Positions 4,280-61,821 of a DNA stretch of 64,000 nucleotides are shown one piece after another (position 1 is the stretch's first letter; each line of letters begins with the position of its first letter). The DNA is from Algoriphagus sp. CAU 1675. GTDB taxonomy: Bacteria; Bacteroidota; Bacteroidia; Cytophagales; Cyclobacteriaceae. Where the stretch lies: assembly GCF_029222925.1 (NCBI RefSeq), contig NZ_JARHUI010000002.1, positions 248,001 to 312,000 on the forward strand, in the 5' to 3' direction. The translations under genes and the position numbers were made by a program. The notes below the pieces were generated by a model that saw nothing but the letters and a program-made list of their open reading frames with translations, was not told the origin of the DNA and searched no databases.

Positions 4280-4282
4280 TGT

Positions 4283-4355
4283 GTTTATCTAGACTGTTTT
4301 TAAATAACAGCACAAACATATTATCTGAAATCATTCTAAACAAGGTTTATCTAGA
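4283..4355. repeat. Two copies of GTTTATCTAGA bracketing the receptor promoter
   Basis: The 11-mer GTTTATCTAGA occurs exactly at 4283-4293 and 4345-4355. One copy is in the leader and one is just upstream of the -33 element. Start-to-start distance is 62 bases, near six helical turns. The arrangement fits a regulator-binding pair, but no regulator is known. Confidence 0.5.
4313..4343 (-). promoter_or_regulatory. Bacteroidota-type promoter of the FecA-like receptor
   Basis: Read on the minus strand there is TTG (4343-4341), a 20-base spacer, then TATGTTTG (4320-4313). This matches the TTG-N19/20-TAnnTTTG consensus of Bacteroidota housekeeping promoters. The -7 box ends 34 bases before the ATG at 4279, leaving a leader of about 25 bases. 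Confidence 0.6.
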
Positions 4356-7383: not shown

Positions 7384-9713
<2,330 letters not shown>

Positions 9714-9736
9714 GAATAGCAAAATCCTCAGTACAA

Positions 9737-9768
9737 AAGCCAGTCTTCGAAGACTGGCTTTTTTTTAT
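9737..9768 (+). terminator. katG terminator
   Basis: A perfect 24-base palindrome with half AAGCCAGTCTTC (TTCG-like loop) is followed by a run of T. It starts 24 bases after the katG stop. Confidence 0.92.
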
Positions 9769-9838
9769 TTCTCCGTCTTCAGTTGGAGAATTTTAGGAGA
9801 AAAAACTAAATTCCATCGCATTTTAAAAACTCCCAATC

Positions 9839-37475: not shown

Positions 37476-38879
37476 CTATCCTATCAACTCCTTTTCCAGT
37501 TGCTCCAGGGATTTTCCTTTGGTTTCGGGCAACAGGAAATACAGAACCACAAATCCAAAGGCACAAATCCCACCATACAGCCAAAAATTATTGGCCCATC
37601 CCAAATTTTCCTGAATTGCGGGAAAGAAATAAGTCAGGGTAAAATTACCCAACCAATGAGCAAGAGCTCCAATAGATATGGCTGCTCCTCGGATCCGGGT
37701 CGGAAAAATCTCTGCCAATACCACCCACAGCAGGGGAGCCAAGGTAAAGGAATAAAACATCACATTGCTCAAAACCAAGCCCACAACCAGATTACCGCCC
37801 TGCTCAATATAAAAAGTATAGCCAATCAATCCATACAGTACAGCCATCGCCGAGGTCCCGACAAGCAAAAGCTTTTTTCTACCAAATCTGTCCACTGTAA
37901 ATAGAGTGATAAAGACCGAAAGAACCATCACACCTCCGATCACCACGATATTGAGCATCATCTGCTTGAGATTGTAGCCTGCAGCTTGGAAAATATCCGC
38001 CGCGTAATAAATCACCACGTTGATCCCGCTCCACTGCTGAAGAAAGGCCAGAAAAATCCCGATTCCCAAAAGTTTCAATACATTCTTATGCAGGAGATCC
38101 TTGAAATCCACACGGGCAAGATCCTTTTCCTTCAACGTGGTTTTTATCTCAGAAATCGTATCCTTCGCATAGTTCTGCCCACCTATTTTTTCCAAAATCC
38201 TACTGGCCCGGTCTTCCTCCTTGTTTTTGATCAACCAAGGAACGGATTCCGGCACAAAAAACATCAGCAGGAAAAACAAAAGAGCAGGAATCACTTCTGC
38301 TCCAAACATCCATCTCCAGCCCGACTGTCCACTCCAACTGGAAGCAATCATTTCAAAACTTGCATCTTCAGCCAACTGGGTATCCAGCAGCGAAATCTGC
38401 CAATTGGCCAACTGAGCCAACAATACCCCAATCATGATCAAAAGCTGATTGATGGTCACCATCCTGCCTCTTTTCTCAGGAGGCGAAAGCTCTGCTATGT
38501 ACAGGGGAGATAAATTCAGCGCTATTCCCATGGCTACTCCTCCTACAATTCTATAAAAATTGAACCACCAAAAAGTGTCCGACAAAGCCGTACCTACTGC
38601 AGAAAGTGAAAACAGAAACCCAGAAAAGATCAAAAGCCTCTTTCGGCCCAACTTATCCGAAATCAAAATACAAAGAGTCGCCCCGATCATACAGCCTACC
38701 AAAGCCGAACTCGTGCCCCAACCTTGGTCTGAAACAGAAGTAATATTGAAAAAGGGCTCATAAAAAGGCTTGGCACCACCGATCACCACCCAATCATATC
38801 CAAACAAAAAGCCACCTAACGCGGCTGTTAAACTGATCAACCAAATATAGGATTGGTTATAGCTGTAGTTTTGAGTCAT
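37476..38879 (-). CDS. MFS sugar porter (XylE/GalP-like), 467 aa
   Basis: A 12-helix proton-linked sugar transporter. Signature motifs are present: GGFLFGYDWVVIGGA in helix 1, RIVGGVAMGIALNLSPLYIAE in helix 4, LLFFLLMFFVPESVPWL in the central region, and LPETKGKSLEQLE at the end. A typical loop, SDKLGRKRLL, follows helix 2. The sugar is unknown; xylose, glucose or galactose fit the family. It is a single gene, transcribed toward the GNAT gene. Confidence 0.93.
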   Translation of the reverse strand: MTQNYSYNQSYIWLISLTAALGGFLFGYDWVVIGGAKPFYEPFFNITSVSDQGWGTSSALVGCMIGATLCILISDKLGRKRLLIFSGFLFSLSAVGTALSDTFWWFNFYRIVGGVAMGIALNLSPLYIAELSPPEKRGRMVTINQLLIMIGVLLAQLANWQISLLDTQLAEDASFEMIASSWSGQSGWRWMFGAEVIPALLFFLLMFFVPESVPWLIKNKEEDRASRILEKIGGQNYAKDTISEIKTTLKEKDLARVDFKDLLHKNVLKLLGIGIFLAFLQQWSGINVVIYYAADIFQAAGYNLKQMMLNIVVIGGVMVLSVFITLFTVDRFGRKKLLLVGTSAMAVLYGLIGYTFYIEQGGNLVVGLVLSNVMFYSFTLAPLLWVVLAEIFPTRIRGAAISIGALAHWLGNFTLTYFFPAIQENLGWANNFWLYGGICAFGFVVLYFLLPETKGKSLEQLEKELIG

Positions 38880-42778: not shown

Positions 42779-43351
42779 CTAAGCCTCAAAAAAATAAACC
42801 ACCAACATGCGGGCAGTTTCATCTCCTATATTAAAGGGATTGTGCTCCAATCTTCCATCAAAAAGCATAGAATCCCCTGCTTCCAAAACAAGCTCCTGAT
42901 CTCTAAATATATATTTTACCCGACCGGAAATCATGTATTTGTACTCGTAGGCCTCGGTTTGAACGAAATCACGGGAGGATCCCGGCTGAATCTCCAACAA
43001 CACAATATCGATGGTGCTTTCCTTCACCTTTTTGGTAAAAATCCGAAAATACTCATACCCACTCGCAGTTTCCTTTTCAAAATGCTCATAATCTGCTTTT
43101 CGCTGTACCACAATGGAAGCTTCCTTGGAGTGTAGGCTGAGTTCATTGAAAAACTCATCCAGATCCACTTCCAATGCCTTAATCAGTTGAATCAATACCA
43201 ATAAGGATGGAATAGTCCGACCATTTTCAATCTGAGAGATCAAACCCTTGGTCACTCCTGCCCGATCTGCCACCTCCTGAAGGGTCAAACCTTTTTCCTT
43301 TCTGATACTTTTAATTTTATTACTGATCTGTACGATCACCTCATGTTCCAT
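42779..43351 (-). CDS. XRE-type regulator with C-terminal cupin, 190 aa
   Basis: A helix-turn-helix domain (about 8-62: EKGLTLQEVADRAGVTKGLISQIENG) is joined to a cupin_2 domain (about 115-188: IQPGSSRDFVQTEAYEYKYMIS and AGDSMLFDGRLEHNPFNIG). Such proteins sense small metabolites and repress or activate nearby genes. It lies 173 bases downstream of the phosphonate operon and is transcribed in the same direction, so it is the likely local regulator. Confidence 0.93.
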   Translation of the reverse strand: MEHEVIVQISNKIKSIRKEKGLTLQEVADRAGVTKGLISQIENGRTIPSLLVLIQLIKALEVDLDEFFNELSLHSKEASIVVQRKADYEHFEKETASGYEYFRIFTKKVKESTIDIVLLEIQPGSSRDFVQTEAYEYKYMISGRVKYIFRDQELVLEAGDSMLFDGRLEHNPFNIGDETARMLVVYFFEA

Positions 43352-43435
43352 GAATCAGCTTTGCTATATTTTTTGGAAACTACAAAAAAGATGGGGTTTG
43401 AACAGGGGATTGAAAATTAAAAGTTGGGACGTCGA

Positions 43436-43454
43436 GAGTTATAGGTTGTAGGTT
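43436..43454. repeat. GTTGTAGGTT-type intergenic repeat, copy A
   Basis: GAGTTATAGGTTGTAGGTT matches 18 of 19 bases with 47619-47637. It lies in the spacer between the XRE and FAD oxidoreductase genes. These tracts recur only between genes in this window. Confidence 0.6.
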
Positions 43455-43524
43455 TTAGGCTGTTAATGTCTAAAGAAGAGACCCAGAAAAAGCCCTGTTT
43501 TTAGGAAAGTTTAAAAAACGAAAC

Positions 43525-44661
43525 CTAAACTTTTTCCAATTGATCAACTACTTCCTCTCCCAAGCCAAATGAAAGGGTCATTCCAGCTCCTCCCAAACCA
43601 TTGACAATGGTCACATACTCATCCAATTGATGAACAAATTCAGTTGCACCATTCGTCATTTTAGGATATATACCGTTCCAAGTGGAATCAATCTTCCAAT
43701 CCCTGAATTGCGCGAATTTTTTCAAGTATTCAAGAATCAATTCATTGACATGGCTTTGATCAAAAGGAGAAAGATTCAAACCGTATTCATGACTGTCCCC
43801 AACCGTCAATTCCCCAAGACCGTTTTGGGACACCATCACATGGACCCCCATTTCTACCAATTCAGGAAACTCTTTCTTATAGTGTTCCTTTAAAATTTGA
43901 AGTGAGGGAGCGACTTCAAAACCTTTGTAATGGGTAAAGCTCAGCCCTGCACATAGCGGAGGCCCAATCCTCCAAGCCTCCGGTTGCCTCACCAAACGTA
44001 TCATTTGCAATTTGCATTTTGTAATTGGGGAAGCTTCAAACAATTCCGGATAGAGGGTTTCAAAATCTGCTCCTGAAGCCACAAAAATCCGATCGGCTGA
44101 CCAACTCTTCATTCCGGAGTAAACCTTATTTCCCTCAATTCGGGAAATTGCCCTATTCCAAATAAATTCTACACCTTCGAGATCTTCCAGATAGCTGGCA
44201 GTTTTATAAATGGCCTCCCGTGGATCCACGATCACTTCATCAGCTGACCAAACTCCTCCTTTTAGTCCTTCCAAAACCGCCGCAGGGCTTTTTTCCCCAA
44301 CCTCTTCCGCATCCAGCCATTGGGCTGATTTGATCCCGGTCATGGCCCCTACATATTCTTTGGCAACTTGCCTTTCAAGATCAGAGTAAACCAAATGAAG
44401 GGAACCGGTCTGTTCGGCGAAAAACCCAGCCTTTTGACTGAGTTCCAGCCAAATTTCACGGGATCGCATAGCCCTCATAAAAGTCGGACCCTGTGCCTGG
44501 CCTATGGGCCAAACCATCCCGAAGTTCCGCACCGAAGCTCCCTGAGCCTGGGGGTGCCTCTCTATCACTGTGACTTGCCAGCCTTTAGCCTGCAAGGCCC
44601 GGGTAAGCGCCAAGCCAACTATACCGGCACCGATGACGATTGCTTTCTGAGATGTATTCAT
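43525..44661 (-). CDS. TIGR03364-like FAD-dependent oxidoreductase, phosphonate-linked, 378 aa
   Basis: A DAO/GlyO-type flavoenzyme. The dinucleotide motif VIGAGIVGLALTRALQAKG begins at residue 9; ERHPQAQGASVRNFGMVWPIGQ and TIVNGLGGAGMTLSFGLGE (about 355) are family marks. TIGR03364 proteins sit in phosphonate-degradation clusters and relatives are reported to oxidise 2-aminoethylphosphonate or N-methyl derivatives to phosphonoacetaldehyde (from memory). Here it is one base downstream of the DUF5690 transporter gene and after a phosphonatase-like gene, with no PhnW nearby. It could thus make the substrate for the hydrolase. Confidence 0.88.
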   Translation of the reverse strand: MNTSQKAIVIGAGIVGLALTRALQAKGWQVTVIERHPQAQGASVRNFGMVWPIGQAQGPTFMRAMRSREIWLELSQKAGFFAEQTGSLHLVYSDLERQVAKEYVGAMTGIKSAQWLDAEEVGEKSPAAVLEGLKGGVWSADEVIVDPREAIYKTASYLEDLEGVEFIWNRAISRIEGNKVYSGMKSWSADRIFVASGADFETLYPELFEASPITKCKLQMIRLVRQPEAWRIGPPLCAGLSFTHYKGFEVAPSLQILKEHYKKEFPELVEMGVHVMVSQNGLGELTVGDSHEYGLNLSPFDQSHVNELILEYLKKFAQFRDWKIDSTWNGIYPKMTNGATEFVHQLDEYVTIVNGLGGAGMTLSFGLGEEVVDQLEKV

Positions 44662-44662
44662 A

Positions 44663-45979
44663 TCAATTGATCAGGGAAAGGGAGACAGGGGCTTCCTTCT
44701 CCCGTTTTTTTAGTTTGCGTTGAAAGTAGAAAAGGGAAACCCCCATCAAAAGGGAGGATATACTTAGAAAAACCAGGATGCTACTGAGATAAAAGTTGAG
44801 CCAACTGAGGTTTTGAGTACCTCCAACCTGTTTAAAAACCAATACTAGACTGGAGCCTAAGTATCCAAAACTGTCGACCAAATACATGAGAAAACCTACA
44901 TTTCCAGCATATTTAAAAGTGGCGATCAGTCGGTCGAAGAGAAGTGAATTGAAGGGAATATAGGCCATGTAAATACCCGTTCCGGTCAATACCATCCAAT
45001 AAAAAGGAGATAGTATTCCTGCTTGCAATCCCAAAGTTGAAAGGATGGTAATGGCAAAGCCCCCAAGAATTATCCAATGATTCAGAAAGAGGACCCGTTG
45101 ATTGTCTCTCACCAAAACCAGGAGAGACATCAGCCCGAGCAGGATAAGCGTGATAGGCACCTCTGTCTTAGTCAGGAGTTCTGGCGCTACTTCCATTTGC
45201 AACCCACTCCAAATTTCAACAACAAAATTATCCCTCAAATCCCGAAGTCCCGTCAGCATCATATATACCAAAATCAAAAGCATGATTCCTATTCGAAACT
45301 CCCTAAAAAAGACTTTTCTGGAAGCTGAGTCCATAGAAGACCGGGGAGACCTCATCCTTTGATCCTCTAATGAAGGAGACGGGATATGATCCAATAAAAC
45401 TACCGCAACCAGTAACAGAGGAAAAAAAACTGCACCTGTCAAGAAAGGCATCCAATATTCTGTCACTCCCCAGTCCAACAAAAGATAACGTCCTATAGAC
45501 TTGACAAAACCTGATGAAAAAACAAAGCTGGCAGCCAACATGCTTCCCATCATTTCTGTAAATCTCCTCCCCTCCATATAATGAAAAACTATTCCCCAAA
45601 TTAATCCCAGTGGAAAGCCATTGAGGACAAAAAACAAAATCCCCGCAGGACCGGGAACCAAGGCAAAACCCAACAATGCCATCCAGGATAATGTAATCAG
45701 CGTCAGGATCAAACGGGCTCTTCCCCTATCTCCGAGTTCGGAAATCATTTTGATCCCATAAAACTTGGAGGCCATATACCCAAGGGTCTGTGCAAGAATC
45801 AGCCAGATTTTCAGGTTCAATCCCAAAAACTCCTCTCCCTCAAAAGCTGCTACGGCAAAAGGCTTTCGAAAAGCATACATACTGGAATACACCAAGAAAC
45901 CCATTAAAGCTGCAAACACACTCATTTGGAAGGAATTAGCCTCCTGAAGCTTTTTGGAAAGGAGTGCACTTCGAAGCAT
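44663..45979 (-). CDS. DUF5690 family MFS-like transporter, about 438 aa
   Basis: A membrane protein with about 12 hydrophobic segments. It begins MLRSALLSKKLQEANSFQMS; SMYAFRKPFAVAAFEG is a strong family feature, resembling the antiporters UhpT/GlpT (YxxRK). ATG 45979 is one base past the stop of the phosphonatase-like gene, and its own stop is one base before the FAD gene. The UhpT-like character and position suggest import of a phosphonate such as 2-aminoethylphosphonate. No DUF5690 transport function is proven, to my knowledge. Confidence 0.85.
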   Translation of the reverse strand: MLRSALLSKKLQEANSFQMSVFAALMGFLVYSSMYAFRKPFAVAAFEGEEFLGLNLKIWLILAQTLGYMASKFYGIKMISELGDRGRARLILTLITLSWMALLGFALVPGPAGILFFVLNGFPLGLIWGIVFHYMEGRRFTEMMGSMLAASFVFSSGFVKSIGRYLLLDWGVTEYWMPFLTGAVFFPLLLVAVVLLDHIPSPSLEDQRMRSPRSSMDSASRKVFFREFRIGIMLLILVYMMLTGLRDLRDNFVVEIWSGLQMEVAPELLTKTEVPITLILLGLMSLLVLVRDNQRVLFLNHWIILGGFAITILSTLGLQAGILSPFYWMVLTGTGIYMAYIPFNSLLFDRLIATFKYAGNVGFLMYLVDSFGYLGSSLVLVFKQVGGTQNLSWLNFYLSSILVFLSISSLLMGVSLFYFQRKLKKREKEAPVSLSLIN

Positions 45980-45980
45980 T

Positions 45981-46691
45981 TCAGGAAAGTGATTTTTCGT
46001 ATGCTTCAACCAATCCAATCAATTCACTCAGGGAGGCTATCAGATGAGTAGGATGATGGGGAAGCAATTCCTCGGCGGAATACGCCCCTGAAGTCACGCC
46101 TATACTCATCAGGCAACCTGAATTGTGACCTTCATTGATATCTACCTCTGTATCACCGATTTTGATCACCGATTTGGGATTTTCTATTCCCAGCTCCTGC
46201 ATGATCTTTTGGATCATAAAGGGATAAGGTCTTCCCATTTCCACTTCATCACTCGCTGCCGAAGCATCTATATACTTTCCCTGGGTCCATCCCACTCTTT
46301 GGAGGATGATATCTGTGATATCCCTGCTAAAACCAGTATCCAAGGCCACCTTGATCCCCATTGCATGCAAGACTTCAAAGACCTTCTCCGCATCCGCAAC
46401 AGGACGGATGGAAGGGTCAGTGGCATAATGCTCCAGCATTCCCTTGACAAAATCCTCATGGATTTCACCAATCAGATCTTCAGTGATTTTTTCCGCATTT
46501 GGCTCATGGATTTCCAGCAATTCACGAATAGCTTGGGGCTTGGAATAGCCCATTTTTTCATTGGCTTCCTGCAAGGAGACTCCTGGGTACCCTCTTTTAT
46601 TAAGGGCGGCCTGGAAAGCTTTGGCTACATTGTTTTCATCATAAATAGTGGTACCGGCCATATCAAAGACCGCCAACTTAATCTGAGGCAT
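45981..46691 (-). CDS. Phosphonatase-like HAD hydrolase (PhnX/TIGR03351 type), 236 aa
   Basis: Splits the C-P bond of phosphonoacetaldehyde to acetaldehyde and phosphate if it works like PhnX. Nucleophile D10 sits in VFDMAGTT, two residues from the position in PhnX (D12). K51 (MGYSKPQAIREL) matches the Schiff-base Lys of phosphonatase. Motif III is KIGDTEVDINEG. The length is shorter than classic PhnX. It is the first gene of the tight three-gene minus-strand operon and is divergent from a PhnZ-like gene. Confidence 0.85.
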   Translation of the reverse strand: MPQIKLAVFDMAGTTIYDENNVAKAFQAALNKRGYPGVSLQEANEKMGYSKPQAIRELLEIHEPNAEKITEDLIGEIHEDFVKGMLEHYATDPSIRPVADAEKVFEVLHAMGIKVALDTGFSRDITDIILQRVGWTQGKYIDASAASDEVEMGRPYPFMIQKIMQELGIENPKSVIKIGDTEVDINEGHNSGCLMSIGVTSGAYSAEELLPHHPTHLIASLSELIGLVEAYEKSLS

Positions 46692-47003
46692 GGAAATCTA
46701 ATTTTACTGTAAAGGCTTTAGGGTTCCGGGGGAGAAGCCATTCAAAACCCTCCCCCTACTCTTGCAAAACCAACTCAATATTTGTTTAGCAAAATTAAAC
46801 TTTCAGAAATTTTTGGTCTTTCCAAAATCCATTATCATTTCATTAAGGTATTGTTTCGACTCAATTCCCTTATTCTTAAAAAACAACCTAAATTGACATA
46901 AAATTGAAAATACATTGGTAACTAAAGCTTCATCTAAAATTCATATTGAAAAATTCCTTTGAATTTATTTAATGATGAATTTAGTATTTATAAACAAATA
47001 GCT
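46692..47003. other. Divergent phosphonate-locus promoter region
   Basis: About 310 bases between divergent phn-type genes. CAAAATTA at 46790-46797 gives TAATTTTG on the minus strand, an exact -7 box, but the nearest TTG (46823-46825 as CAA) is 25 bases away. No terminator or gene is seen. Confidence 0.4.
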
Positions 47004-47582
47004 ATGGAACCCCATCTACTTACTACTTCGGAAAAACTGGACTTACTTTTTGGATTTTATACACGATTTGGCTCAGAGGATTACATTGGAGAGCCTGTCT
47101 CCCAGATTGAGCATATGTGTCAGTCTGCCCAACTAGCAGAGAAAGCAGGGTTTGAGGAAGAAGTGATTTTAGCCGCCTTTTTCCATGACCTTGGGCATTT
47201 GTTAAGCCACTTGGAAACTGCAGAGTCCATGGGAGGATTTGGGGCAAAAAGACATGAACAAATCGGTGCGCAGTTTTTAAGGATGTTGGGTTTTCCCGAG
47301 AAAATAGCTCAGTTGGTTGAAAACCACGTTCAGGCGAAACGCTACCTCACCTGCCGAAACCCGGATTATTTCGCCCTGCTTTCTGAAGCGAGCAAGAATA
47401 CCTTGGAGTACCAAGGTGGCCCCATGAACGAGCAAGAAGCAATTGCATTTGAAAAAGATCCTTTGTTCGAGGCCTCGCTCCAAATGAGAAAATGGGATGA
47501 GGAAGCAAAGCTGGAAGACATCCCACTACCCGAACTGAAAAAATACAGAGACATGGCTGAATTGGTTTTGGAAAGGAATTGA
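47004..47582 (+). CDS. PhnZ-like HD mixed-valence di-iron oxygenase, 192 aa
   Basis: PhnZ cleaves (R)-2-amino-1-hydroxyethylphosphonate to glycine and phosphate using O2. All PhnZ metal and control residues have counterparts at near-constant offset: Y27 and E30 (DYIGEPVSQIEHM), H37, H61, D62 and H65 (FFHDLGHLL), H84, H108 and D165. Spacing to PhnZ Y24, E27, H34, H58, D59, H62, H80, H104, D161 (from memory) is +3 then +4. ATG 47004 is preferred to the upstream TTG. It is transcribed away from the phosphonatase operon. A PhnY dioxygenase, needed for its substrate, is not in the window. Confidence 0.88.
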   Translation: MEPHLLTTSEKLDLLFGFYTRFGSEDYIGEPVSQIEHMCQSAQLAEKAGFEEEVILAAFFHDLGHLLSHLETAESMGGFGAKRHEQIGAQFLRMLGFPEKIAQLVENHVQAKRYLTCRNPDYFALLSEASKNTLEYQGGPMNEQEAIAFEKDPLFEASLQMRKWDEEAKLEDIPLPELKKYRDMAELVLERN

Positions 47583-51654: not shown

Positions 51655-53337
51655 TCATTTCTTATTTATTCTAAATTCATCCAAAACCTCTCCCCCTAAA
51701 CCAAATACCTGAAGTTGAATGGCGTCTTCTTTCAGGTTCATGATTCCATAATGGTGTTTTTTCACCAAAAGATCCATTTCAGGGTAAGCCGAACTCATCC
51801 CTTCTTTTTCTAAGCCTCCACCAGCTCCCCCCACTATCAGAAAATGAACCCTGTTACCTGAGAATTCCCCGGTCCAACGTTCATAGTCATGGGTATGCCC
51901 GGCTTGTACAATATCAATCAAACCCTTGTGAAAGTAGGGTTCCAGTAGTTCGCGAATGGACTCTTCTCCATGGTAATCCGGCCAACCTTGTGAATAAGGA
52001 GGCTGATGAAGTACGACCATCTTCCAAGGACTGGAAGCCCACTTTTCTGAATTCAACTGTTTATCCATCCATTCCCTTTGCTCACTACCTTCAGGAAGAG
52101 AAACAGGAAAAAACGTATTCGGATCCAAAGTCATGACTGCTAGTGGTCCAAAAAACTGCAGCCCATAGGTTTTCTGTTTCTCCTTAAAAAGATAAGCGTG
52201 CATTGGTTTGGGCTTTAGATCCTCATAAAACCCATCGTAGTCATGATTGCCCGGGACCAAAAGCTGCAGTGTTTTCATTTCGCCCAGTACCTGTAAAAGT
52301 CTAGGGTACGCCAATTCCTCCGAACCATTATTGACCAGGTCCCCTGCCCCTACACTTAAATCCACTTGATGCTTTTCGATCTCTTCGGATATTTTTCGGA
52401 AAGTTTCCCAACCTCCCTGAGAGTCTCCCCAAATAGCAATTTTTACTGAATCCTTGGCGACTGGAAGTTCAAATTCGAAGCTGCCTTGATGGGATTTTCC
52501 CTGAAACAGTTCAAAACTAAGGGAAGACTCCTTACTCAAATCATAATTAAAAATTCCGTCCTGAGACTGAACCTTTACCTCCTTTCCACCCTGAAAAACA
52601 AGCCTCGCCTCGCCTCCTTGTTCACTGACCCAACGGAGAAAAGGAATGCCATCAGTACCAAGCAAAAGCAAGGGGCTGGTAAATACGATGGGATAGGATT
52701 TTAGAATTTCTCCTCGTTCTTCGAAGGACAATTTCTCCAATTGATCCTTCAGAGACTCGTCCTCCAAAAGATCCAGTTTGCGCCGGGTAAGAACAGAATC
52801 TCTTCTTACCTGAAGAGAATTCTTCCACTTCCAATAATTTTCCTCTTTCATCCAGTGGATTTTCCTCAATCCACCCGCCATCGCATTGTTGACTACCCGT
52901 AGTATTAAACTTCTTTTGCCAGCTCCCTTGACCTCAAATAGTTCTCTTTCCGGGGATCTTTTTACTCTTTCGCCATCCAACCAGACCTGCACCCCATCAT
53001 CCGCGTCAACAATTAAAACCCCCTGATCCAAAAATCCTTCCCAGTGATACCACATAGAATGATTGGGAAGACTAAGCCGATGTGGAAGCAAAATATGCTC
53101 ACCAGTATCCATCACACCCGGAAATTCCCTTTCAATCCCGGGGATAGAATCCGAGCCTAAATACCTCCAACCGGAATCCAAAAGGAAAAGATTTTCTCCA
53201 GAAAATCCATCATCCAGATATTCCCCAATCTGAAAACCATCCGAAAAAAATACCTCTCCGAAAGTCGGAGAGGTAGATTTTGGCTGACAGGCCTGAATCA
53301 ACAACAGCGCACAACAGCCTATCCAAAATGTTCTCAT
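51655..53337 (-). CDS. Metallophosphoesterase, lipoprotein, 560 aa
   Basis: A calcineurin-like phosphatase placed outside the cytoplasm (MRTFWIGCCALLLIQAC lipobox, Cys about 17). An N-terminal beta-rich domain (about 25-290) carries a carbohydrate-binding-like region. The catalytic domain shows the five blocks WGDSQG, GAGDLVNNG, VPGNHDYDG, LHQPPYSQGW and GHTHDYERW, so the two-metal site is complete. It overlaps the upstream phosphatase gene by four bases. With the SusCD pair ahead of it, it likely removes phosphate from an imported or surface-bound ester. Confidence 0.92.
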   Translation of the reverse strand: MRTFWIGCCALLLIQACQPKSTSPTFGEVFFSDGFQIGEYLDDGFSGENLFLLDSGWRYLGSDSIPGIEREFPGVMDTGEHILLPHRLSLPNHSMWYHWEGFLDQGVLIVDADDGVQVWLDGERVKRSPERELFEVKGAGKRSLILRVVNNAMAGGLRKIHWMKEENYWKWKNSLQVRRDSVLTRRKLDLLEDESLKDQLEKLSFEERGEILKSYPIVFTSPLLLLGTDGIPFLRWVSEQGGEARLVFQGGKEVKVQSQDGIFNYDLSKESSLSFELFQGKSHQGSFEFELPVAKDSVKIAIWGDSQGGWETFRKISEEIEKHQVDLSVGAGDLVNNGSEELAYPRLLQVLGEMKTLQLLVPGNHDYDGFYEDLKPKPMHAYLFKEKQKTYGLQFFGPLAVMTLDPNTFFPVSLPEGSEQREWMDKQLNSEKWASSPWKMVVLHQPPYSQGWPDYHGEESIRELLEPYFHKGLIDIVQAGHTHDYERWTGEFSGNRVHFLIVGGAGGGLEKEGMSSAYPEMDLLVKKHHYGIMNLKEDAIQLQVFGLGGEVLDEFRINKK

Positions 53338-54425
53338 TGAATCATTTCTTCAATTACGGCTCCTGCTTTTTCATCCGGATACTCCAAACCCAGCAAAGTA
53401 AAAATGGTTCGTGCGATTCGGGCTGAATACCACTGCCCCTCTACCTTCATTTCACCACCTGCGGGCGTATCCGGTCCGATCGCTGCCATCCAGATTTGTC
53501 CAGCCACAGGAATGGAAGCTCCATGGCTTCTCCAGCTCGTCTTGCTGGTTCCACGACCATGGTCTGTAGTGATGATCATGGTAGTTTTATCCTTGTATTG
53601 TGGATCTGACTGGATCATTTCCCAAATTTCCCGAATGTAGTCATCAGTCTGACGAGCTGACCAGAGGTATTCGTCGTAATGATTGCCATGGGCCCAATCG
53701 TCGGTTTCTCCATAGGCAATGTAAAGCACCTTAGGTTTGTGCTTCTTGATGGCTTCCAATGCGTAATGATGGGTAAAGGGATCCAAACGAACTCCGCCCC
53801 AAGGCCCGCGGATTTCATCCTGCATTCGATTGATCAATAGCTCTCTATCCGTCAGGTTATTTCCTTCTGCCTTGTCAAAACCGGCATTTACCGGAACCCC
53901 GCTACGCTCTTCATTTACGATGTAAGGAAACACATCCCAGCTTCCAAAGGCCATTACCTTCCCCTGGTACTCAGGTCTCTGATTGAGGTATTCCAAAAAA
54001 GTCACGTTTGGATTGTTGATTTTTGAATTGGAATTGATTCGCTCATCATCCGCAAATCCACTCAACACCTCATTGTAGCCTGGGTAGGAAAACCACATGG
54101 AATTGCTGTTGTTGACAAAATTTCCATACGCCCGGTTTCCATAGATTTGCCCTTCTTTCGCAAGAGTGTTCCAGAAGAAGGGAAGCAATTTTTCCCTTCG
54201 GATTTGGGAGTTTTCATCCCAAAAATCCTCCAGCAAAGAGCCGGCTGTTTTGATCATACCGGTATCATCCACCAACAGCGAGTCGGCTCCCTTGAAGACT
54301 TCCTGCCAGCGCATCCCATCCAAGGTGATCAGGACGATGTTTTCTGTTTTATAATTCGTTTGGGAAAATGCCTGAGCAGCTCCCAGAAACAGAGCCAAGG
54401 TCAGTAGCAAATTGCGTTTAATCAT
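53334..54425 (-). CDS. Alkaline-phosphatase-superfamily hydrolase, secreted, 363 aa
   Basis: A phosphodiesterase/phosphomonoesterase-type enzyme with a signal peptide (LALFLGAAQAFSQ). Metal-site elements are visible: VLITLDGMRWQEVF (first Asp), MWFSYPGYNEVLSG (nucleophile region), DDWAHGNHYDEYLW (Asp, His) and ITTDHGRGTS...HGA (Asp-His, His). This is the NPP/iPGM-like layout. It lies 79 bases after susD and overlaps the metallophosphoesterase by ATGA. The pair could act in series on diesters and then monoesters. Confidence 0.88.
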   Translation of the reverse strand: MIKRNLLLTLALFLGAAQAFSQTNYKTENIVLITLDGMRWQEVFKGADSLLVDDTGMIKTAGSLLEDFWDENSQIRREKLLPFFWNTLAKEGQIYGNRAYGNFVNNSNSMWFSYPGYNEVLSGFADDERINSNSKINNPNVTFLEYLNQRPEYQGKVMAFGSWDVFPYIVNEERSGVPVNAGFDKAEGNNLTDRELLINRMQDEIRGPWGGVRLDPFTHHYALEAIKKHKPKVLYIAYGETDDWAHGNHYDEYLWSARQTDDYIREIWEMIQSDPQYKDKTTMIITTDHGRGTSKTSWRSHGASIPVAGQIWMAAIGPDTPAGGEMKVEGQWYSARIARTIFTLLGLEYPDEKAGAVIEEMIQ

Positions 54426-54504: not shown

Positions 54505-56055
54505 TTAATCTACATCCCACCATACACGGGTTGTCAGGTTGTCTGCACCCTGACGGGCAATGGCAGCCTTATAATTCTCTCCATTCAGAGACTGAACAGA
54601 AGATGGATACATATAGCGAACGGGGACCGTGTTGATATAAGCCGCAGGACCAGGTAGGATTTTCGGATAGTCAGTTCTTCTCCAGTCATACCAGCCTTCC
54701 AGACCATTAAAGAAAAGAGCCAACCACTTTTGAGTGCCTATTTTAGCAAGTTTTTCAGTTGCTGTCCCGGTATAGGCCACATCTGCCTGGGCAAAATAGG
54801 ATTCATCAACCACCAATTTTTCAGAAATCTGGCTTAAGCCAATCGCCTCATAGCGTTCTTTGTAATAGTCAATGGAAGCCTGGATTCCGTTTCTGTAGTA
54901 TTCTTCTGCAGAACCTGTGGAAATATAACCTCTTTCCCTAGCCTCTGCCAATACAAACTGCAGCTCGGCATAGCTCATCAAAATCGCTTGGTATCCTGTT
55001 GGGTTAGCCAATGAAGTACAGGCAGAACAAGACCAAAGAAGACCGACTCTGGAAATAAAATTCGAACCTCCTTTAGCAGGATCTCCTGCAGGAGAATACT
55101 GCAAAGCCTCCTCATCAGCCAGTCCATTGGGCACTCCTTGGTAATCATCAACTTCACCGATAATACCGGCTCCGGAATCATTGGTCGGCTGGGCATAAGC
55201 AAACAGGCGAGGATCATTCAAATCCTTCAATACACCTTCCATTTTTTCGCTCAGTCTATATTCATCAAATGAACCTGAACGCGTGGTGTAAAGTGGATGC
55301 TGATTGGGTACATCCTGTAGATACTGCAATGCAGCCTGCTCCTCATTGGAGATGAAGATGGGAGTTTGTGCCGGGTTATTCAAAATTGCCTGCATGGCAG
55401 CCGATGGGTCCTGACGATCCGAAAGTCTCATCAAGATTCTCAAGCGAAGTGAGTTGGCAAACTTCTTCCATCTCAAAACATCACCTTCAAACAAAATATC
55501 TCCTTCTACTGATTCGTAGGAAGAACCCAACAAATCATTTGCCTCCTGCAGTTCTGCCAGGATACCGCTGTAGATTTCTTCCTGGGTATCAAACTTTGGA
55601 TAGTTGATGGCTTCTTTGGCTTGGGTTGCTTCAGAATAAGGCAACTCCCCGTAAGCATCTGTCATAAATGCGAACATATGGGCTCTCATCACCTTTGCGA
55701 TTCCTACATAGTTATTTTGTCCGGCCTCAGATGAAATCCGGATCACATTGTTGAGGTCACGAAGCGAATTATAGAAGTTATTATAAGGATTGCCTGCAGG
55801 CCCCCAATTGTATCGGTCTTCATTGGTAAACTGGATTTTTGCGGTTTGTTGCACGACCACATTTCCGATTCCCCAAGCTGCCCCTGCAATCTCATTGGTG
55901 GTGTTTCGAATTATAGTTGGCAATAAAAGGCTGGAAGAAACTGTCTCCGGGCTGTTTGGATTAACATTGATAGTTTCAAAATCCTTGTCGCAGGAACTTA
56001 GTCCCATTACGAGGGCAAAACCTAATCCCGCGATGTATTTAGTATTGAATTGCAT
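54505..56055 (-). CDS. SusD/RagB-family nutrient-binding lipoprotein, 516 aa
   Basis: An outer-surface lipoprotein (FALVMGLSSC, Cys about 22) that captures ligand and closes the SusC barrel like a lid. TPR-like helices and the family features NVNPNSPETVS at the start and YAELQFVLAEARERGYIS near residue 360 are visible (SusD_2-like). It is 35 bases downstream of susC and starts a segment ending with two phosphatase genes. The bound compound is probably phosphorylated, by context only. Confidence 0.93.
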   Translation of the reverse strand: MQFNTKYIAGLGFALVMGLSSCDKDFETINVNPNSPETVSSSLLLPTIIRNTTNEIAGAAWGIGNVVVQQTAKIQFTNEDRYNWGPAGNPYNNFYNSLRDLNNVIRISSEAGQNNYVGIAKVMRAHMFAFMTDAYGELPYSEATQAKEAINYPKFDTQEEIYSGILAELQEANDLLGSSYESVEGDILFEGDVLRWKKFANSLRLRILMRLSDRQDPSAAMQAILNNPAQTPIFISNEEQAALQYLQDVPNQHPLYTTRSGSFDEYRLSEKMEGVLKDLNDPRLFAYAQPTNDSGAGIIGEVDDYQGVPNGLADEEALQYSPAGDPAKGGSNFISRVGLLWSCSACTSLANPTGYQAILMSYAELQFVLAEARERGYISTGSAEEYYRNGIQASIDYYKERYEAIGLSQISEKLVVDESYFAQADVAYTGTATEKLAKIGTQKWLALFFNGLEGWYDWRRTDYPKILPGPAAYINTVPVRYMYPSSVQSLNGENYKAAIARQGADNLTTRVWWDVD

Positions 56056-56090: not shown

Positions 56091-59000
56091 TTAAAACTTG
56101 ACGTTCAGGTTGAATCCAACACTTCTGGTAGAAGGGAAAGCCATGTTTTCAATACCCGGCTGAAGGGTTCCTCCAGACATGGAAAGTGTTTCAGGGTCGA
56201 AGTGAGGGTTTTCAGTCCAAAGAGCCAGATTACGGGCAACAAGGGAAATTTTCACATCTTGTACTGGCAATTTGCCTAATACAGATCTTGGCACGGTGTA
56301 TCCAATAGTCACTTCACGAAGTTTCAGGAAGGTAGCGTCATATTTGGCCGCTTCCACGTTGTTTCGCTCGTAATAACGGTTGTGCCAGTTTCTTGAAGAG
56401 ATCTTGATGGTGTTCGGAGTGTATGAACCGTCTGCATTTTTGATCACACCCGGGCTGACAATTCCGTTTCCGTCAACAGATAGATCATAACCATTTTCAC
56501 GTCCGTACAAAGTCTCCTCCAACTGACCGGAAGTACTTCCGATGGTTTTGGTTCGGGAAACTACAATCCCACCGTATCTGAAATCAAACAAGAAGCCCAG
56601 GGAAAGTCCTTTGTAGCTGAAGTTATTTTGCAAGCCCAGCATCCAATCCGGGTTGTAATTCCCCTGAAGTTTCAAGGTAGGATCAGTAATTGGTGTACCT
56701 GATGTGGTATGGACGATCTGTCCGTAGTAAGGAGAAGCTGGATCTTCTACTCTCAAGAAACCAGAGCCGTAAATATTACCCATTCTTTCACCGATTCGGG
56801 CCTGGATATTGGCACCGTTTCTTCCGGTCAAGGTATACGTATCCAAACCTTCAGTCAACTCCAACACCTTACCTCTGGTTCGGGTAAAATTGGCAGTGAA
56901 ATTCCAGTTCAATCCATCTTGAGAAACAACGGGAGCTCCATTGAGAACTATTTCAATCCCTTTGTTCTGGATCTCTCCGGCATTGATGATTCTGGAAGCA
57001 TAACCGGTCGCAATATCCAATTCAATTGGGATGATCTGGTTTCTTGTTCTGTTGTCAAAATAGGTGAAGTCCAGTCCCAGTCTTCCGCTTAGAAAACGGA
57101 TATCCAAACCTGTTTCGAAGGCTGCAGTTCTTTCCGGTTTCAAGTCTGCATTGGAAAGTCTGGAAGATTCGGATTTGGCCTGGATAGAACCCCAAGCTGT
57201 CTGTGAATTGTAGACATTGCTCAGGCTGTATGGATCTGTATCATTCCCCACTTCTGCATAAGCCACTCTGCCTTTCAGGAAAGAAATGGTTTCCGGAAAG
57301 GTAATCATGTCTGAAATCACGGCGCTGAAAGTAGCGGAAGGATAGAAATAGCTGTTGTTTCCTACTGGAAGTGTACTGGACCAGTCATTTCTTCCGGTGA
57401 CATCCAGGAAAAGGATATTCTTGTATCCGATTTGACCGAATCCATATAGTGAGTTGATTCTCTTTTCAGAATTGTACTGGCTCACCTGAAGGTTCACCGC
57501 AGTATTGGTAAAGTTGTAGATTCCCGGAATCAACAACTGAGGAGCCACGGTCTGCAAGTAGCGGTTTTCCTGACGCATTTGGTTACCACCCACGGCAACA
57601 CTGTATGACCAAACCGGCTTGGTATGCTCAGAATAGGTTAAAAGGAAATCAGAGTTTTGCTCCGTAAAGTAAACATTATCTTCTCTGTAGTTTCCTTTAG
57701 GGAATCGCTGCGTACTGAAAGCACGCTTTCTGTCTCTCAGTTCATTGTAGGTATCCAAACCGGTACGCACCATCAAGTTCAGCTTGTCTGTGAACTTGTA
57801 GTTCAGGGAAACATTCCCAAAAATTCTATCCTTTGACTGCCCGTTGGTATTTTCATACACGTTGAAATAGGGGTTGTCGTGGTAGTTGTAATTGTAGTTG
57901 AACTGCTGCACGCCTTCCCTACCCTTCATCCAATAATTTCTCAGATTGGAAGTATTGATCTGACGACCATACCAGATCCAGAGGTACATCAGGTTTTCTG
58001 TACCATAACTGATATTTGGACGGTTTCCGCTATTGCTTCTTTGGAAATTAACTGCTGAATTTACTGTCAACTTATCCGTTACATTGATTCCACCGTTCAT
58101 TGCGATGGTATTTCTTTTCAGGTCTGTATTTGGTACAATTCCCTTCTGATCCAGATTGGTCCAGGAAAGTCTGATGTTTGCATTTTCGCTGGACCCCGCC
58201 AAAGCAACGTTATTGGAAAGCGTTACTCCCGTTTCGAAGAAGTTGTTGATGTTGTCGGGTTGTGAAGCCCAGGGAGTTGGAGTGATGGTACTTCCAGCTG
58301 GAGCATTTAAGTCTCCGCCTCTGTAACCTGCCACTGATCTTGGAGAATCAAATTGAGGAAGCAGCAATCCGGCATCCAATTCAGGACCCCAGCTTTCATC
58401 CACCCCATCAGCGATACCGGCACCCGCACCGTTCACAAATTCAAATTGTCCATTATTACCCTGTCCATATTTATTCTGCCATTGAGGCAAAACCAAAGGA
58501 TTGTCAAAGGTGGTATTGGAGTTGATGGTCACTCCCAGTCCTTTCTTTCCTTTTCCTGATTTGGTAGTGATCAAAATAGCTCCGTTGGCTGCTCTTGAGC
58601 CATACAAGGCTGCGGCAGCCGGGCCTTTAAGGACTGTCATCGAGGCAATGTCATCCGGGTTGATTTCACCGGCAGCATTTCCGTAATCCACTTCCTGATT
58701 TCCAGAACCGGTAGATCCTACCACATTATTGGAAATAGGCACACCATCCACCACAAATAGCGGTTGGTTGGCGTTGATATTGAGAGAAGATTCCCCTCTA
58801 ATTGTCACTCGGGTGGAGCCCCCTATTCCAGAGGTTCCACTGGTAATCTGCACCCCTGCCACACGGCCGCTCAAGGAGTTGATGACATTGGTTTCCCTGG
58901 CTTCTGTAAACCGGTCTCCACTTACTGCTTGCACAGAATAACCCAAGGCTTTGGTTTCCCGCTCAACTCCCAATGCCGTTACCACTACTTCATTAAGGGC

Positions 59001-59306
59001 TACACCCTCGTTCAAGGTCACGTGGATCACTGAGGAATTCCCTACGATTCTCTCGACAGTTTCGAATCCCACAAATGAAAAAACAAGCGTTTCCGAAGGA
59101 GATGCCTGAATAAAATACGAACCGTCACCATTCGTAACGGTGCCTCTGGTAGTTCCTTTTACCATCACCGTAGCTCCTGGAAGGGGCTCGTTGGATGAGT
59201 CACTTACTTTTCCTTCCACCCTCATTTGTTGGGCCTGGGAGAAGTTGAGGATGAAGAGCATGCATGCCACTATCATTCCTTGCCAAATGCTTTTTTTAGC
59301 AGTCAT
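56091..59306 (-). CDS. SusC/RagA-family TonB-linked outer-membrane transporter, about 1071 aa
   Basis: The barrel half of a SusCD nutrient importer. A signal peptide (LFILNFSQA) leads to a carboxypeptidase-like domain (about 29-100: VEGKVSDSSNEPLPGATV) and the plug (about 115-230), with IASMTVLKGPAAAALYGSRAA, the SusC mark. The long barrel ends in NVKF. ATG 59306 (MTAKKSIWQ) is chosen; the frame extends to 59357 but that adds a charged leader. First gene of a four-gene operon with susD, a phosphatase and a metallophosphoesterase. No regulator or anti-sigma gene lies beside it. Confidence 0.95.
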   Translation of the reverse strand: MTAKKSIWQGMIVACMLFILNFSQAQQMRVEGKVSDSSNEPLPGATVMVKGTTRGTVTNGDGSYFIQASPSETLVFSFVGFETVERIVGNSSVIHVTLNEGVALNEVVVTALGVERETKALGYSVQAVSGDRFTEARETNVINSLSGRVAGVQITSGTSGIGGSTRVTIRGESSLNINANQPLFVVDGVPISNNVVGSTGSGNQEVDYGNAAGEINPDDIASMTVLKGPAAAALYGSRAANGAILITTKSGKGKKGLGVTINSNTTFDNPLVLPQWQNKYGQGNNGQFEFVNGAGAGIADGVDESWGPELDAGLLLPQFDSPRSVAGYRGGDLNAPAGSTITPTPWASQPDNINNFFETGVTLSNNVALAGSSENANIRLSWTNLDQKGIVPNTDLKRNTIAMNGGINVTDKLTVNSAVNFQRSNSGNRPNISYGTENLMYLWIWYGRQINTSNLRNYWMKGREGVQQFNYNYNYHDNPYFNVYENTNGQSKDRIFGNVSLNYKFTDKLNLMVRTGLDTYNELRDRKRAFSTQRFPKGNYREDNVYFTEQNSDFLLTYSEHTKPVWSYSVAVGGNQMRQENRYLQTVAPQLLIPGIYNFTNTAVNLQVSQYNSEKRINSLYGFGQIGYKNILFLDVTGRNDWSSTLPVGNNSYFYPSATFSAVISDMITFPETISFLKGRVAYAEVGNDTDPYSLSNVYNSQTAWGSIQAKSESSRLSNADLKPERTAAFETGLDIRFLSGRLGLDFTYFDNRTRNQIIPIELDIATGYASRIINAGEIQNKGIEIVLNGAPVVSQDGLNWNFTANFTRTRGKVLELTEGLDTYTLTGRNGANIQARIGERMGNIYGSGFLRVEDPASPYYGQIVHTTSGTPITDPTLKLQGNYNPDWMLGLQNNFSYKGLSLGFLFDFRYGGIVVSRTKTIGSTSGQLEETLYGRENGYDLSVDGNGIVSPGVIKNADGSYTPNTIKISSRNWHNRYYERNNVEAAKYDATFLKLREVTIGYTVPRSVLGKLPVQDVKISLVARNLALWTENPHFDPETLSMSGGTLQPGIENMAFPSTRSVGFNLNVKF

Positions 59307-59354
59307 TGTAAGTAAATGTTTTGAATACGTGATTTTTTTGGTTAAAAATTTTAC

Positions 59355-59362
59355 CAAAGCTA
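59355..59362 (-). promoter_or_regulatory. -7 box upstream of susC
   Basis: The minus strand reads TAGCTTTG, an exact TAnnTTTG match, ending 48 bases before ATG 59306. No TTG is at the expected -33 distance. Confidence 0.35.
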
Positions 59363-59983: not shown

Positions 59984-61672
59984 TTATTGACTTTCTACTT
60001 TTTTCCTTCTCTCCTTGATTTCATCCACTCGCTCCTTGGAAACACCAAAGACTTTTCCTGCCGAGGCATCCTCAAGCAGCATATCTATATACCTCTGACT
60101 AAGCTGGGAATTGTCCTTGTATTTCTCCCTCAGTTTATCCAGTCGCTCATGCAGGTCTTTTCTGATTTCGGAATAAGCAGGATCGTCATAGACATTTTTC
60201 AGTTCCATTGGATCATTTTTCCTGTCAATCAATTCCCATTGATCTTCTACATAATAATAGTGGATCAACTTGTAGTCCTTGGTCACAATGGCATAATGGC
60301 GATTGACCATATGCTCAGCGGGATATTCATAGTAATGGTAATACACCTCATCCCGGGTCCATTTATCCTCATTTCCTGTCAACAAAGGGATCATGCTTTC
60401 ACCCTGCATATCGCTAGGTGCTTCCACTCCTGCCGCTTCTAAAAAAGTCTGGGCAAAATCAAGGTTTTGAACCATCTCATCCGAACGGGTTCCTGCTTTG
60501 GTTTTTCCCGGCCAAGCCACCAAAAGCGGAGTCTTGAAAGACTGATCGTATACAAATCGCTTGTCAAACCAACCATGCTCTCCAAGATAGAAGCCCTGAT
60601 CAGAAGTATAAACGATTATGGTATTTTCCATCAGGTTATTGGCTTCCAAATAATCCAGCAACCTACCTACGTTTTCATCTACAGCCTGGATAGTACCCAG
60701 ATAATCCTGCATGTAGCGCTGGTATTTCCACTTCATAATTTCCTCCTCAGTCATGCTGGGATATGCCTTTTTGAATTCCTCGTTGATCTTGGAATAGGCA
60801 TTTAAGAAATGTTCCCGCTGTGAAGGAGTCAGGCGCTTCATTTCATTCTCATAGCGAATCTTGTCGTATCCAATTTCAGCGATACCCAATTCATCCATTA
60901 CCTCAGGAAACACTTTATTGTCCCCAGCCCAACTCATGTGCTTCAGAATACTCATTTCGGCCTCGGCTACAGGGGAAGTTCTTCCTGAATAATCATCAAA
61001 AAGGGTTGCAGGCTCAGGAAAACTCCTATTGGTAAAATCTTCCAGATGACGCTCAGCCATCAACCAGGACCTATGAGGAGCTTTATGCAAATACATCAGC
61101 ATAAAAGGCTGGTCAGCTTTGCGCTCATTGCTCAGCCAATCCAAAGTCATGTCTGTAATAATATCTGTGACATATCCTTCCACCCGGATATTCCCTTCAT
61201 TCTTGGTGATAAAGTCGGGATTGTAATAGGCCCCTTGTCCAGGTAAAATCTTGAACTGGTCAAAGCCCTTTGGATTGTTCCCAAAATGCAATTTCCCGAA
61301 CATGGCAGTCTGATATCCTGCCTGCTGAAGGATCTGGGGAAAGGTAATATTGGTCGTATCAAAAGGAAAATGGTTGTCAATTTTCCCGTTGAGATGGGAA
61401 TGCTTTCCGGTCAGAATAGTCGCTCTGGATGGGGCACAAATGGAATTGGTCACACTTGCATTAGTAAATAGAATTCCCATATCGGCAATCCTATCGATAT
61501 TTGGGGTCTCAATCAGACTGTTATCATAAGCTGATATTGCCTGGTAAGCGTGATCATCAGACATGATGAAGATGATATTGGGTCTGTCCGAAACCTTTTT
61601 TTCTTCCTGGGAACAGGAAAAAAGAAGCGAAGTTGCCAAGACTCCCAAGATAAATACAGTAATTTTCCTCAT
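59984..61672 (-). CDS. Cys-type (FGly) sulfatase, about 562 aa
   Basis: A secreted sulfatase lipoprotein (FILGVLATSLLFSC) that removes sulfate esters from glycans. The activation motif NSICAPSRATILTG contains the Cys changed to formylglycine. The metal-binding Asp pair is in IIFIMSDDHAY; DQGFYLGEHGWFDK and HYYEYPAEHM are further family blocks. This resembles N-acetylglucosamine-6-sulfatase-like S1 members, though the subfamily is unproven. ATG 61672 is chosen; the frame runs to 61771 but that is the divergent promoter region. It is divergent from a second sulfatase. Confidence 0.92.
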   Translation of the reverse strand: MRKITVFILGVLATSLLFSCSQEEKKVSDRPNIIFIMSDDHAYQAISAYDNSLIETPNIDRIADMGILFTNASVTNSICAPSRATILTGKHSHLNGKIDNHFPFDTTNITFPQILQQAGYQTAMFGKLHFGNNPKGFDQFKILPGQGAYYNPDFITKNEGNIRVEGYVTDIITDMTLDWLSNERKADQPFMLMYLHKAPHRSWLMAERHLEDFTNRSFPEPATLFDDYSGRTSPVAEAEMSILKHMSWAGDNKVFPEVMDELGIAEIGYDKIRYENEMKRLTPSQREHFLNAYSKINEEFKKAYPSMTEEEIMKWKYQRYMQDYLGTIQAVDENVGRLLDYLEANNLMENTIIVYTSDQGFYLGEHGWFDKRFVYDQSFKTPLLVAWPGKTKAGTRSDEMVQNLDFAQTFLEAAGVEAPSDMQGESMIPLLTGNEDKWTRDEVYYHYYEYPAEHMVNRHYAIVTKDYKLIHYYYVEDQWELIDRKNDPMELKNVYDDPAYSEIRKDLHERLDKLREKYKDNSQLSQRYIDMLLEDASAGKVFGVSKERVDEIKERRKKVESQ

Positions 61673-61710
61673 TGGATCTAGGGTAGAAGGGATTAGGGTT
61701 TGAAAGAGTC

Positions 61711-61718
61711 CAAACCTA
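61711..61718 (-). promoter_or_regulatory. -7 box of sulfatase 1 gene
   Basis: The minus strand reads TAGGTTTG, an exact TAnnTTTG, 38 bases before ATG 61672. The -33 side is weak. Confidence 0.35.
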
Positions 61719-61821
61719 AGCAAAAAATAAATCCTTCCGAAGTTTTTATGAAAAACGGATGGAAAAATCAAAATTTTACCAAATATTATTTTTATTAAAT
61801 CCGAAATACCAGCATTTTAAC

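Follow-up and report, generated by a model that had tools for sequence, protein, structure and literature searches.

A Phosphonate Locus with a DUF5690 Membrane Protein

The 64,000-nucleotide stretch of DNA analyzed here (the window), positions 248,001 to 312,000 of contig NZ_JARHUI010000002.1 from Algoriphagus sp. CAU 1675, contains a real phosphonate locus in which the gene for a membrane protein of the family DUF5690 (PF18943) lies between genes for a PhnX-like HAD hydrolase and a flavin adenine dinucleotide (FAD)-dependent oxidase of the PbfD family. We consider it likely that this locus serves the uptake and degradation of aminoalkylphosphonates, with DUF5690 as an organophosphate-antiporter-like (OPA-like) importer of the major facilitator superfamily (MFS) and with the FAD oxidase, the HAD hydrolase, and a PhnZ-type HD oxygenase as its enzymes. 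The enzyme half of the locus is known and DUF5690 is its new part; judged by gene neighborhoods, DUF5690 proteins very probably form a new family of phosphonate importers that recurs beside different phosphonate-degrading pathways, and this new transporter family is well supported by context. The core features, in window coordinates, are as follows.

45981–46691, minus strand: PhnX-like HAD hydrolase, predicted phosphonoacetaldehyde hydrolase (TIGR03351, 202.1 bits, under the cut-off of 218.9; likeness to solved PhnX)
44663–45979, minus strand: DUF5690 membrane protein, predicted OPA-like MFS phosphonate importer (PF18943, 519 bits; MFS model; motif; linkage)
43525–44661, minus strand: FAD-dependent aminophosphonate oxidase, PbfD family (TIGR03364, 438.8 bits over the cut-off of 285.1)
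42779–43351, minus strand: XRE-cupin transcription regulator (HTH_3 plus Cupin_2 domains)
47004–47582, plus strand: PhnZ-type HD diiron oxygenase (TIGR03276, 215.4 over 214.6 bits), divergent from the HAD gene
46692–46958, no strand: divergent promoter region between the HAD and HD genes (from sequence)

The minus-strand genes follow each other in the order HAD, DUF5690, FAD, with exactly one base separating stop from start at both junctions, and the XRE-cupin gene begins 173 bases beyond the FAD gene. This arrangement had been described in an earlier note made from the sequence alone, and open reading frames (ORFs) and family scores confirm it. The same note had called the locus a compact pathway; its genes are as stated, but the account was incomplete, since it mentioned neither the PhnZ-type HD gene, which lies inside the range that it covered, nor the SusC/SusD and phosphoesterase genes described below. 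Starts were taken at ATG 45979 for DUF5690 and at ATG 47004 for the HD gene, where the ORF tool placed TTG starts at 46018 and 46959, respectively. Pattern scans of 46692–46958 for an operator or promoter gave no more than shuffled sequences did, and the repeats found there resemble chance in AT-rich DNA.

DUF5690 Co-occurs with the FAD Oxidase

Co-occurrence and linkage counts show that the grouping of these genes exceeds chance. Among the 291 genomes in our survey of the order, DUF5690 is found in 72 and Phn-HD in 58; TIGR03364 has a strong match in 79, of which 78 exceed the cut-off. Both DUF5690 and TIGR03364 are present in 59 genomes, DUF5690 alone in 13, and TIGR03364 alone in 20, whereas 199 have neither gene (Fisher odds ratio 45); put differently, TIGR03364 occurs in 59 of the 72 genomes with DUF5690 and in 20 of the 219 without. 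Because the genomes are related, the count was redone by genus. Across the 115 genera the corresponding numbers are 23, 8, 7, and 77, that is, 23/31 against 7/84 with an odds ratio of 32. The 12 Algoriphagus genomes give the same picture on a small scale: DUF5690, TIGR03364, and Phn-HD occur together in three, and the remaining nine have none of them. The genes are also physically linked, with 53 of 80 DUF5690 matches in the order set lying within 20 kb of a TIGR03364 gene (80 of 87 rows were compared, seven short fragments being excluded). Phn-HD is nearly nested within TIGR03364 (57 of 58 Phn-HD genomes). A DUF5690 match over the cut-off was also seen in the control genome of Caulobacter vibrioides.

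DUF5690 Accompanies Several Phosphonate-Degrading Pathways

We inspected the neighborhoods of the best 80 of at least 591 DUF5690 relatives in species genomes (named loci), which are nearest relatives rather than a random draw. Within this sample, the closest relatives of the window protein come from Cyclobacteriaceae, Algoriphagus included. Phosphonate genes lie near DUF5690 in 69 of the 80 named loci. A HAD, FAD, HD, PhnW, or PbfA relative is present in the fetched flanks of 56; the HAD label denotes BLAST similarity and may take in a few general HAD proteins, and 55 of the 56 have another enzyme too, L140 being counted by HAD alone. TBLASTN tallies over the 80 loci are HAD 46, FAD 45, XRE-cupin 40, SusC 40, HD 39, PhnW 4, and PbfA 3. 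Curated cut-offs are passed near DUF5690 by PhnW in L033, L124, L125, and L141, by PhnX in L141 and L143, and by PbfA in L141, and PbfA passes its cut-off in L039 as well; in L033, which belongs to the order set, phnW, HAD, and DUF5690 are consecutive. The HAD, DUF5690, and FAD genes of a Stenotrophomonas locus (L148) are accompanied by a PhnM. Eight of the 11 loci that remain after these and the carbon–phosphorus (C–P) lyase loci come from genomes with TIGR03364 at another place, in one case below the cut-off.

C–P lyase genes adjoin DUF5690 in 13 of the 13 Dyella/Rhodanobacter loci among the 80, and these 13 genomes are without TIGR03364. The Rhodanobacter locus L114 encodes PhnN, PhnF, PhnL, and PhnM over their NCBIfam cut-offs, together with PhnI (531 bits) and PhnJ (490 bits) in Pfam. 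PhnD exceeds its cut-off in none of the 13 genomes; nine yield no match at an E value of 0.001, and in the remaining four the PhnD-like matches are weaker, reaching at most 205 bits. Since nine of 13 have no PhnD match, an importer is the part that these C–P lyase genomes are missing. In a phylogenetic tree, the DUF5690 sequences of nine Dyella/Rhodanobacter rows form one clade (support 100/100) that stands beside mostly Chitinophagaceae sequences (support 91/92; the midpoint root serves for drawing only).

DUF5690 is thus the constant member of PbfD/PhnX-like, PhnW/PhnX/PbfA, and C–P lyase loci, the pattern expected of an importer for a common class of substrates. The earlier note had proposed that DUF5690 imports the substrate of the pathway, and these comparisons lend that proposal strong support through linkage to several C–P cleaving pathways and weaker support through the OPA-type motif described next. 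A gene for a PHP-domain (HisJ-like) protein recurs by DUF5690, often between the DUF5690 and FAD genes, in L015 (8874–9731), L016, L019, and L038 and in 11 of the 80 named loci; none was seen at the locus in this window.

Fold and Conserved Residues of DUF5690

The window protein matches PF18943 with 519.4 bits (gathering cut-off 25), its sole Pfam match at E values up to 0.01, and a search of PHROGs gave one match only (E value 0.066). No paper on DUF5690 or PF18943 was found among openly licensed PMC papers. An AlphaFold2 model built with 55 sequences predicts an MFS fold (pLDDT 89), for which the second-look (VIA) comparison ranks SLC37A4, a glucose-6-phosphate transporter of the OPA family, first (Z 33.0, root-mean-square deviation 3.2, 362 residues).

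All 55 aligned DUF5690 sequences keep R39-K40 in transmembrane helix (TM) 1, K73 in TM2, and R247 in TM7 (numbering of A2). In hhalign comparisons, R39-K40 falls over the RK of all three OPA proteins used (GlpT, UhpT, and UhpC), and the alignment reached R39 with none of seven other MFS proteins. K73 aligns with K80 of GlpT and with K82 of UhpC; in UhpT it meets I76 instead. The invariant R247 lies in model helix 219–252, and the alignments stopped short of R269 of GlpT. We take R45, K80, and R269 of GlpT, in TM1, TM2, and TM7, to be its functional residues.

A characterized precedent is AepP of Pseudomonas putida BIRD-1 (Murphy et al. 2021), described as a GlpT-related MFS protein and proven importer of 2-aminoethylphosphonate (AEP) that is required for growth on AEP as nitrogen source and has phosphate-binding residues in common with GlpT (PMC8316502). 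Because of the OPA-type motif and this precedent of a GlpT relative, we take DUF5690 to be an OPA-like phosphonate importer, most likely a diverged one.

Enzymes and Proposed Pathway

The earlier note had reported no PhnW transaminase in the window, and the check for a phnW elsewhere came out negative: the best match in the whole genome scores 43.8 bits, where the cut-off is 400.8. PhnW is rare throughout the order, exceeding its cut-off in two of the 291 genomes. The genome also lacks PbfA over the cut-off and has no PhnD match, and it has no match to PF06007, so that with PhnJ missing C–P lyase is ruled out here.

The FAD protein clearly exceeds its TIGR03364 cut-off, and its gene clusters with a phosphonatase-type gene. 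PbfD was defined by Zangelmi et al. (2023), where TIGR03364 is the annotation of one PbfD member (PMC10590968). According to the same source, PbfD2 of M. fucicola oxidizes both N-methyl-AEP and AEP, the latter only 4-fold less efficiently, and is able to replace PhnW in an organism that is apparently without PhnW. This comparison favors the claim of the earlier note that the FAD enzyme yields phosphonoacetaldehyde. The idea of a FAD oxidase instead of PhnW is right, and with the PbfD2 work in print since 2023 it is not new (PMC10590968). The main text of that paper contains the word "transporter" once, within a reference title.

A profile from 29 relatives of the HAD protein matches solved PhnX at 171 bits. 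D10, K51, R154, D180, and D184 of the HAD protein are in register with solved PhnX, MGYSK51 falling over MGLLK, and among the relatives D10, R154, and D184 are invariant and K51 and D180 are kept in at least 90%. These positions correspond to the cap-domain Schiff-base lysine, the nucleophile, and the catalytic motif residues.

The HD protein passes the TIGR03276 Phn-HD cut-off narrowly and falls short of those for TmpB and GmPhnZ; its closest solved structure is PhnZ (phmmer, 164 bits, vs. 129 for TmpB). The substrate of PhnZ is (R)-1-hydroxy-AEP (PMC10574752). A two-step PhnY*/PhnZ main route was ruled out, because PhnY* is missing from the locus and the genome has a single PhyH match, some 302 kb away, which reaches 55.5 bits against a methylphosphonate hydroxylase cut-off of 500 and by score is not PhnY*. 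With no PhnY* to accompany it, the PhnZ-type gene suggests that hydroxy-AEP from the environment is used directly, as a food source in itself. Among the 79 TIGR03364 genomes, PbfA is found in 5 of 57 with HD and in 12 of 22 without, a hint that both serve (R)-1-hydroxy-AEP; 11 of the 12 PbfA genomes belong to one genus (g68), so that the pattern may reflect one event.

From these comparisons we infer the substrates of the locus, namely AEP, N-methyl-AEP, and hydroxy-AEP, together with the direction of transport, any antiport, and the regulation. DUF5690 would act as an inner-membrane OPA-like MFS carrier that imports AEP, N-methyl-AEP, and probably (R)-1-hydroxy-AEP, its invariant arginines and lysines binding the phosphonate group, perhaps in exchange for phosphate, which is a guess. 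The PbfD-type oxidase would convert AEP or N-methyl-AEP to phosphonoacetaldehyde, covering the job of the absent PhnW, and the PhnX-like hydrolase would cleave phosphonoacetaldehyde to acetaldehyde and phosphate. (R)-1-hydroxy-AEP may be split to glycine and phosphate by the PhnZ-type oxygenase, and the XRE-cupin protein probably senses the substrate.

Evidence against the Importer and Alternative Explanations

Several observations weigh against this interpretation. DUF5690 is absent from 20 of the 79 TIGR03364 genomes and is therefore not obligatory, and no DUF5690-like substitute was recognized in the 16 of these 20 whose loci were read; TIGR03364 in turn is absent from 13 of the 72 DUF5690 genomes. 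At three named loci (L086, L113, and L153), none of the phosphonate enzymes tested for lies nearby and the genome is without TIGR03364; a regulator resembling PhnR is encoded at L153 (203 bits, below the cut-off of 296.75). For the DUF5690 model, NorA (Z 31.5) trails SLC37A4 by only 1.5, so that the fold alone leaves the family undecided, and Foldseek ranks sialin and NorA first and the glucose-6-phosphate transporter third, family rank there being no test. The hhalign probabilities against OPA proteins are 0.4–3.5% and not significant, and because their scores (18.8–26.9) overlap those of other MFS proteins (11.5–22.0), it is the motif and not the score that carries the OPA argument. A PDB sequence search with DUF5690 gave no chain at E values up to 10. 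The HAD protein lies below both curated cut-offs, that of TIGR03351 given above and that of TIGR01422 (127.3 against 220), and is therefore labeled PhnX-like by resemblance only. Lastly, a sugar-porter MFS gene lies at 37476–38879 on the minus strand, 3.9 kb from the XRE-cupin regulator; its closeness is probably chance, and less probably it may act as a carrier for the locus.

Among the TIGR03364 loci lacking DUF5690, multi-helix ORFs without a family label are present at L169, L170, and L176, and L175 has a sugar-porter MFS gene 3 kb from the FAD gene.

OPA carriers classically transport organophosphates, and DUF5690 might accordingly carry phosphocholine, phosphoethanolamine, or glycerol phosphate from neighboring phosphodiesterases, the phosphonate genes adjoining because both serve headgroup scavenging. 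Phosphodiesterase genes are indeed common near DUF5690, and in L109 a phospholipase C gene (TIGR03396, 802 bits) runs divergently from the DUF5690 gene, with relatives in 8 of the 80 named loci. The fetched flanks of the other 72 gave no such relative, however, and the most recurrent enzymes next to DUF5690 act on C–P compounds, with C–P lyase genes throughout the Dyella/Rhodanobacter loci; we therefore regard an organophosphate carrier as improbable. Export in place of import, be it of excess phosphate, of products, or of an antimetabolite phosphonate, seems very unlikely. Use of a phosphonate as nitrogen or carbon source leaves surplus phosphate, and OPA carriers can transport phosphate, but an exporter would not provide for the nine C–P lyase genomes that have no PhnD match, and AepP is an importer (PMC8316502).

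There is scarcely any chance, in our judgment, that DUF5690 is a UhpC-like membrane sensor of phosphonates or sugar phosphates instead of a transporter. The RK motif is common to UhpC, regulators (XRE-cupin, PhnF, and PhnR-like) are found near DUF5690, and a response-regulator gene adjoins it in L113; the commonest adjoining regulators, however, are soluble one-component proteins, an XRE-cupin relative being present in 40 of the 80 named loci. An importer of phosphonates remains our preferred reading of DUF5690.

SusC/SusD, Phosphoesterases, and Other Genes in the Window

About 4 kb from the phosphonate genes, a row of SusC, SusD, and phosphoesterase genes runs on the minus strand from 59357 to 51655. 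Its members are looser associates of the locus.

51655–53337, minus strand: metallophosphoesterase, lipoprotein by eye (PF00149; homolog adjoins the HD gene in relatives)
53334–54425, minus strand: alkaline-phosphatase-superfamily phosphodiesterase-like protein, signal peptide by eye (PF01663, 26.5 over 23 bits; AlphaFold2, Foldseek)
54505–56055, minus strand: SusD-like protein (L013 homolog is PF12771; 76% identity)
56091–59357, minus strand: SusC/RagA TonB-linked outer-membrane protein (TIGR04056, 637.5 over 368.25 bits)

In another genome of the same genus (L013), homologs of these genes directly adjoin the HD gene. Relatives of the phosphodiesterase occur in 49 of the 291 genomes, 38 of which are TIGR03364-positive, and 22 of 52 phosphodiesterase matches lie within 25 kb of the DUF5690 or TIGR03364 genes compared. 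The phosphodiesterase is also present in five of the nine Algoriphagus genomes that lack DUF5690 and TIGR03364; it was therefore set aside as a specific partner, and the SusC/SusD and phosphoesterase genes were kept as looser associates. Its model places it in the alkaline-phosphatase superfamily only, sulfatases, LtaS-like enzymes, and nucleotide phosphodiesterases being tied as matches. A literature search for SusC and SusD together with aminoethylphosphonate gave a single match, which merely cites an AEP paper.

It is possible, though we think it doubtful, that DUF5690 proteins are general, pathway-independent phosphonate importers and that the locus exemplifies a "phosphonate utilization locus" of Bacteroidota, in which SusC/SusD and surface phosphodiesterases would harvest AEP from phosphonolipids or phosphonate-decorated glycans, DUF5690 would import it, and PbfD, the PhnX-like hydrolase, and a stand-alone PhnZ would split the N-methylated, plain, and hydroxylated forms. 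Harvest from phosphonolipids is a conjecture, because some genomes of the genus have the phosphodiesterase but no phosphonate genes.

Lipid headgroups are again suggested by L163, where a GDPD-type glycerophosphodiesterase (3799–4716) lies between SusD and a HAD-FAD-HD row in a genome without DUF5690. The phospholipase C divergent from DUF5690 in L109, at 7647–9812, is phosphocholine specific and belongs to a Dyella with C–P lyase genes; relatives of it are also found near phosphonate genes in L020, L082, L083, and L089. Elsewhere in the window, two divergent arylsulfatase-like genes at 59984–63282 each score below curated cut-offs, and a protein encoded at 19385–21646 on the plus strand, about 21 kb off, matches at 46% a protein whose gene neighbors DUF5690 in L064 and which has relatives in L068 and L069; the link is doubtful.

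Comparison with Known Phosphonate Systems

The nearest known counterpart of the enzyme set is the PbfD/PhnX pathway without PhnW described for PbfD2 of M. fucicola, which has the same TIGR03364 oxidase beside a phosphonatase-type HAD protein and no phnW (PMC10590968); here, by comparison, a PhnZ-type HD protein, an XRE-cupin regulator, and DUF5690 are also part of the locus. With the PhnY*/PhnZ and TmpA/TmpB oxidative pathways it shares an HD protein that is nearest PhnZ among solved structures, but unlike PhnY*/PhnZ it has no PhnY* partner.

Known phosphonate importers include PhnCDE, AepXVW, and AepP (PMC8316502, PMC10574752). Should DUF5690 prove to be an importer, counting only these three would overlook a route present in Bacteroidota and in some Gammaproteobacteria, and PF18943, a domain family without an assigned function, would acquire a role open to direct testing. 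AepP, compared here by its description, is likewise an MFS carrier adjoining phosphonate catabolic genes with GlpT-type phosphate-binding residues; it has a detectable identity of 27.75% to GlpT (PMC8316502), whereas DUF5690 matches PF18943 only and additionally accompanies C–P lyase genes. In the latter setting the counterpart is the PhnCDE importer of C–P lyase operons: DUF5690 stands by phnF, phnI, phnJ, phnL, phnM, and phnN in L114 and by their relatives in the other 12 loci, but it is a single MFS protein and not an ABC transporter. The Dyella/Rhodanobacter C–P lyase genes, in genomes without PhnD over the cut-off, offer a clean genetic test case for DUF5690.

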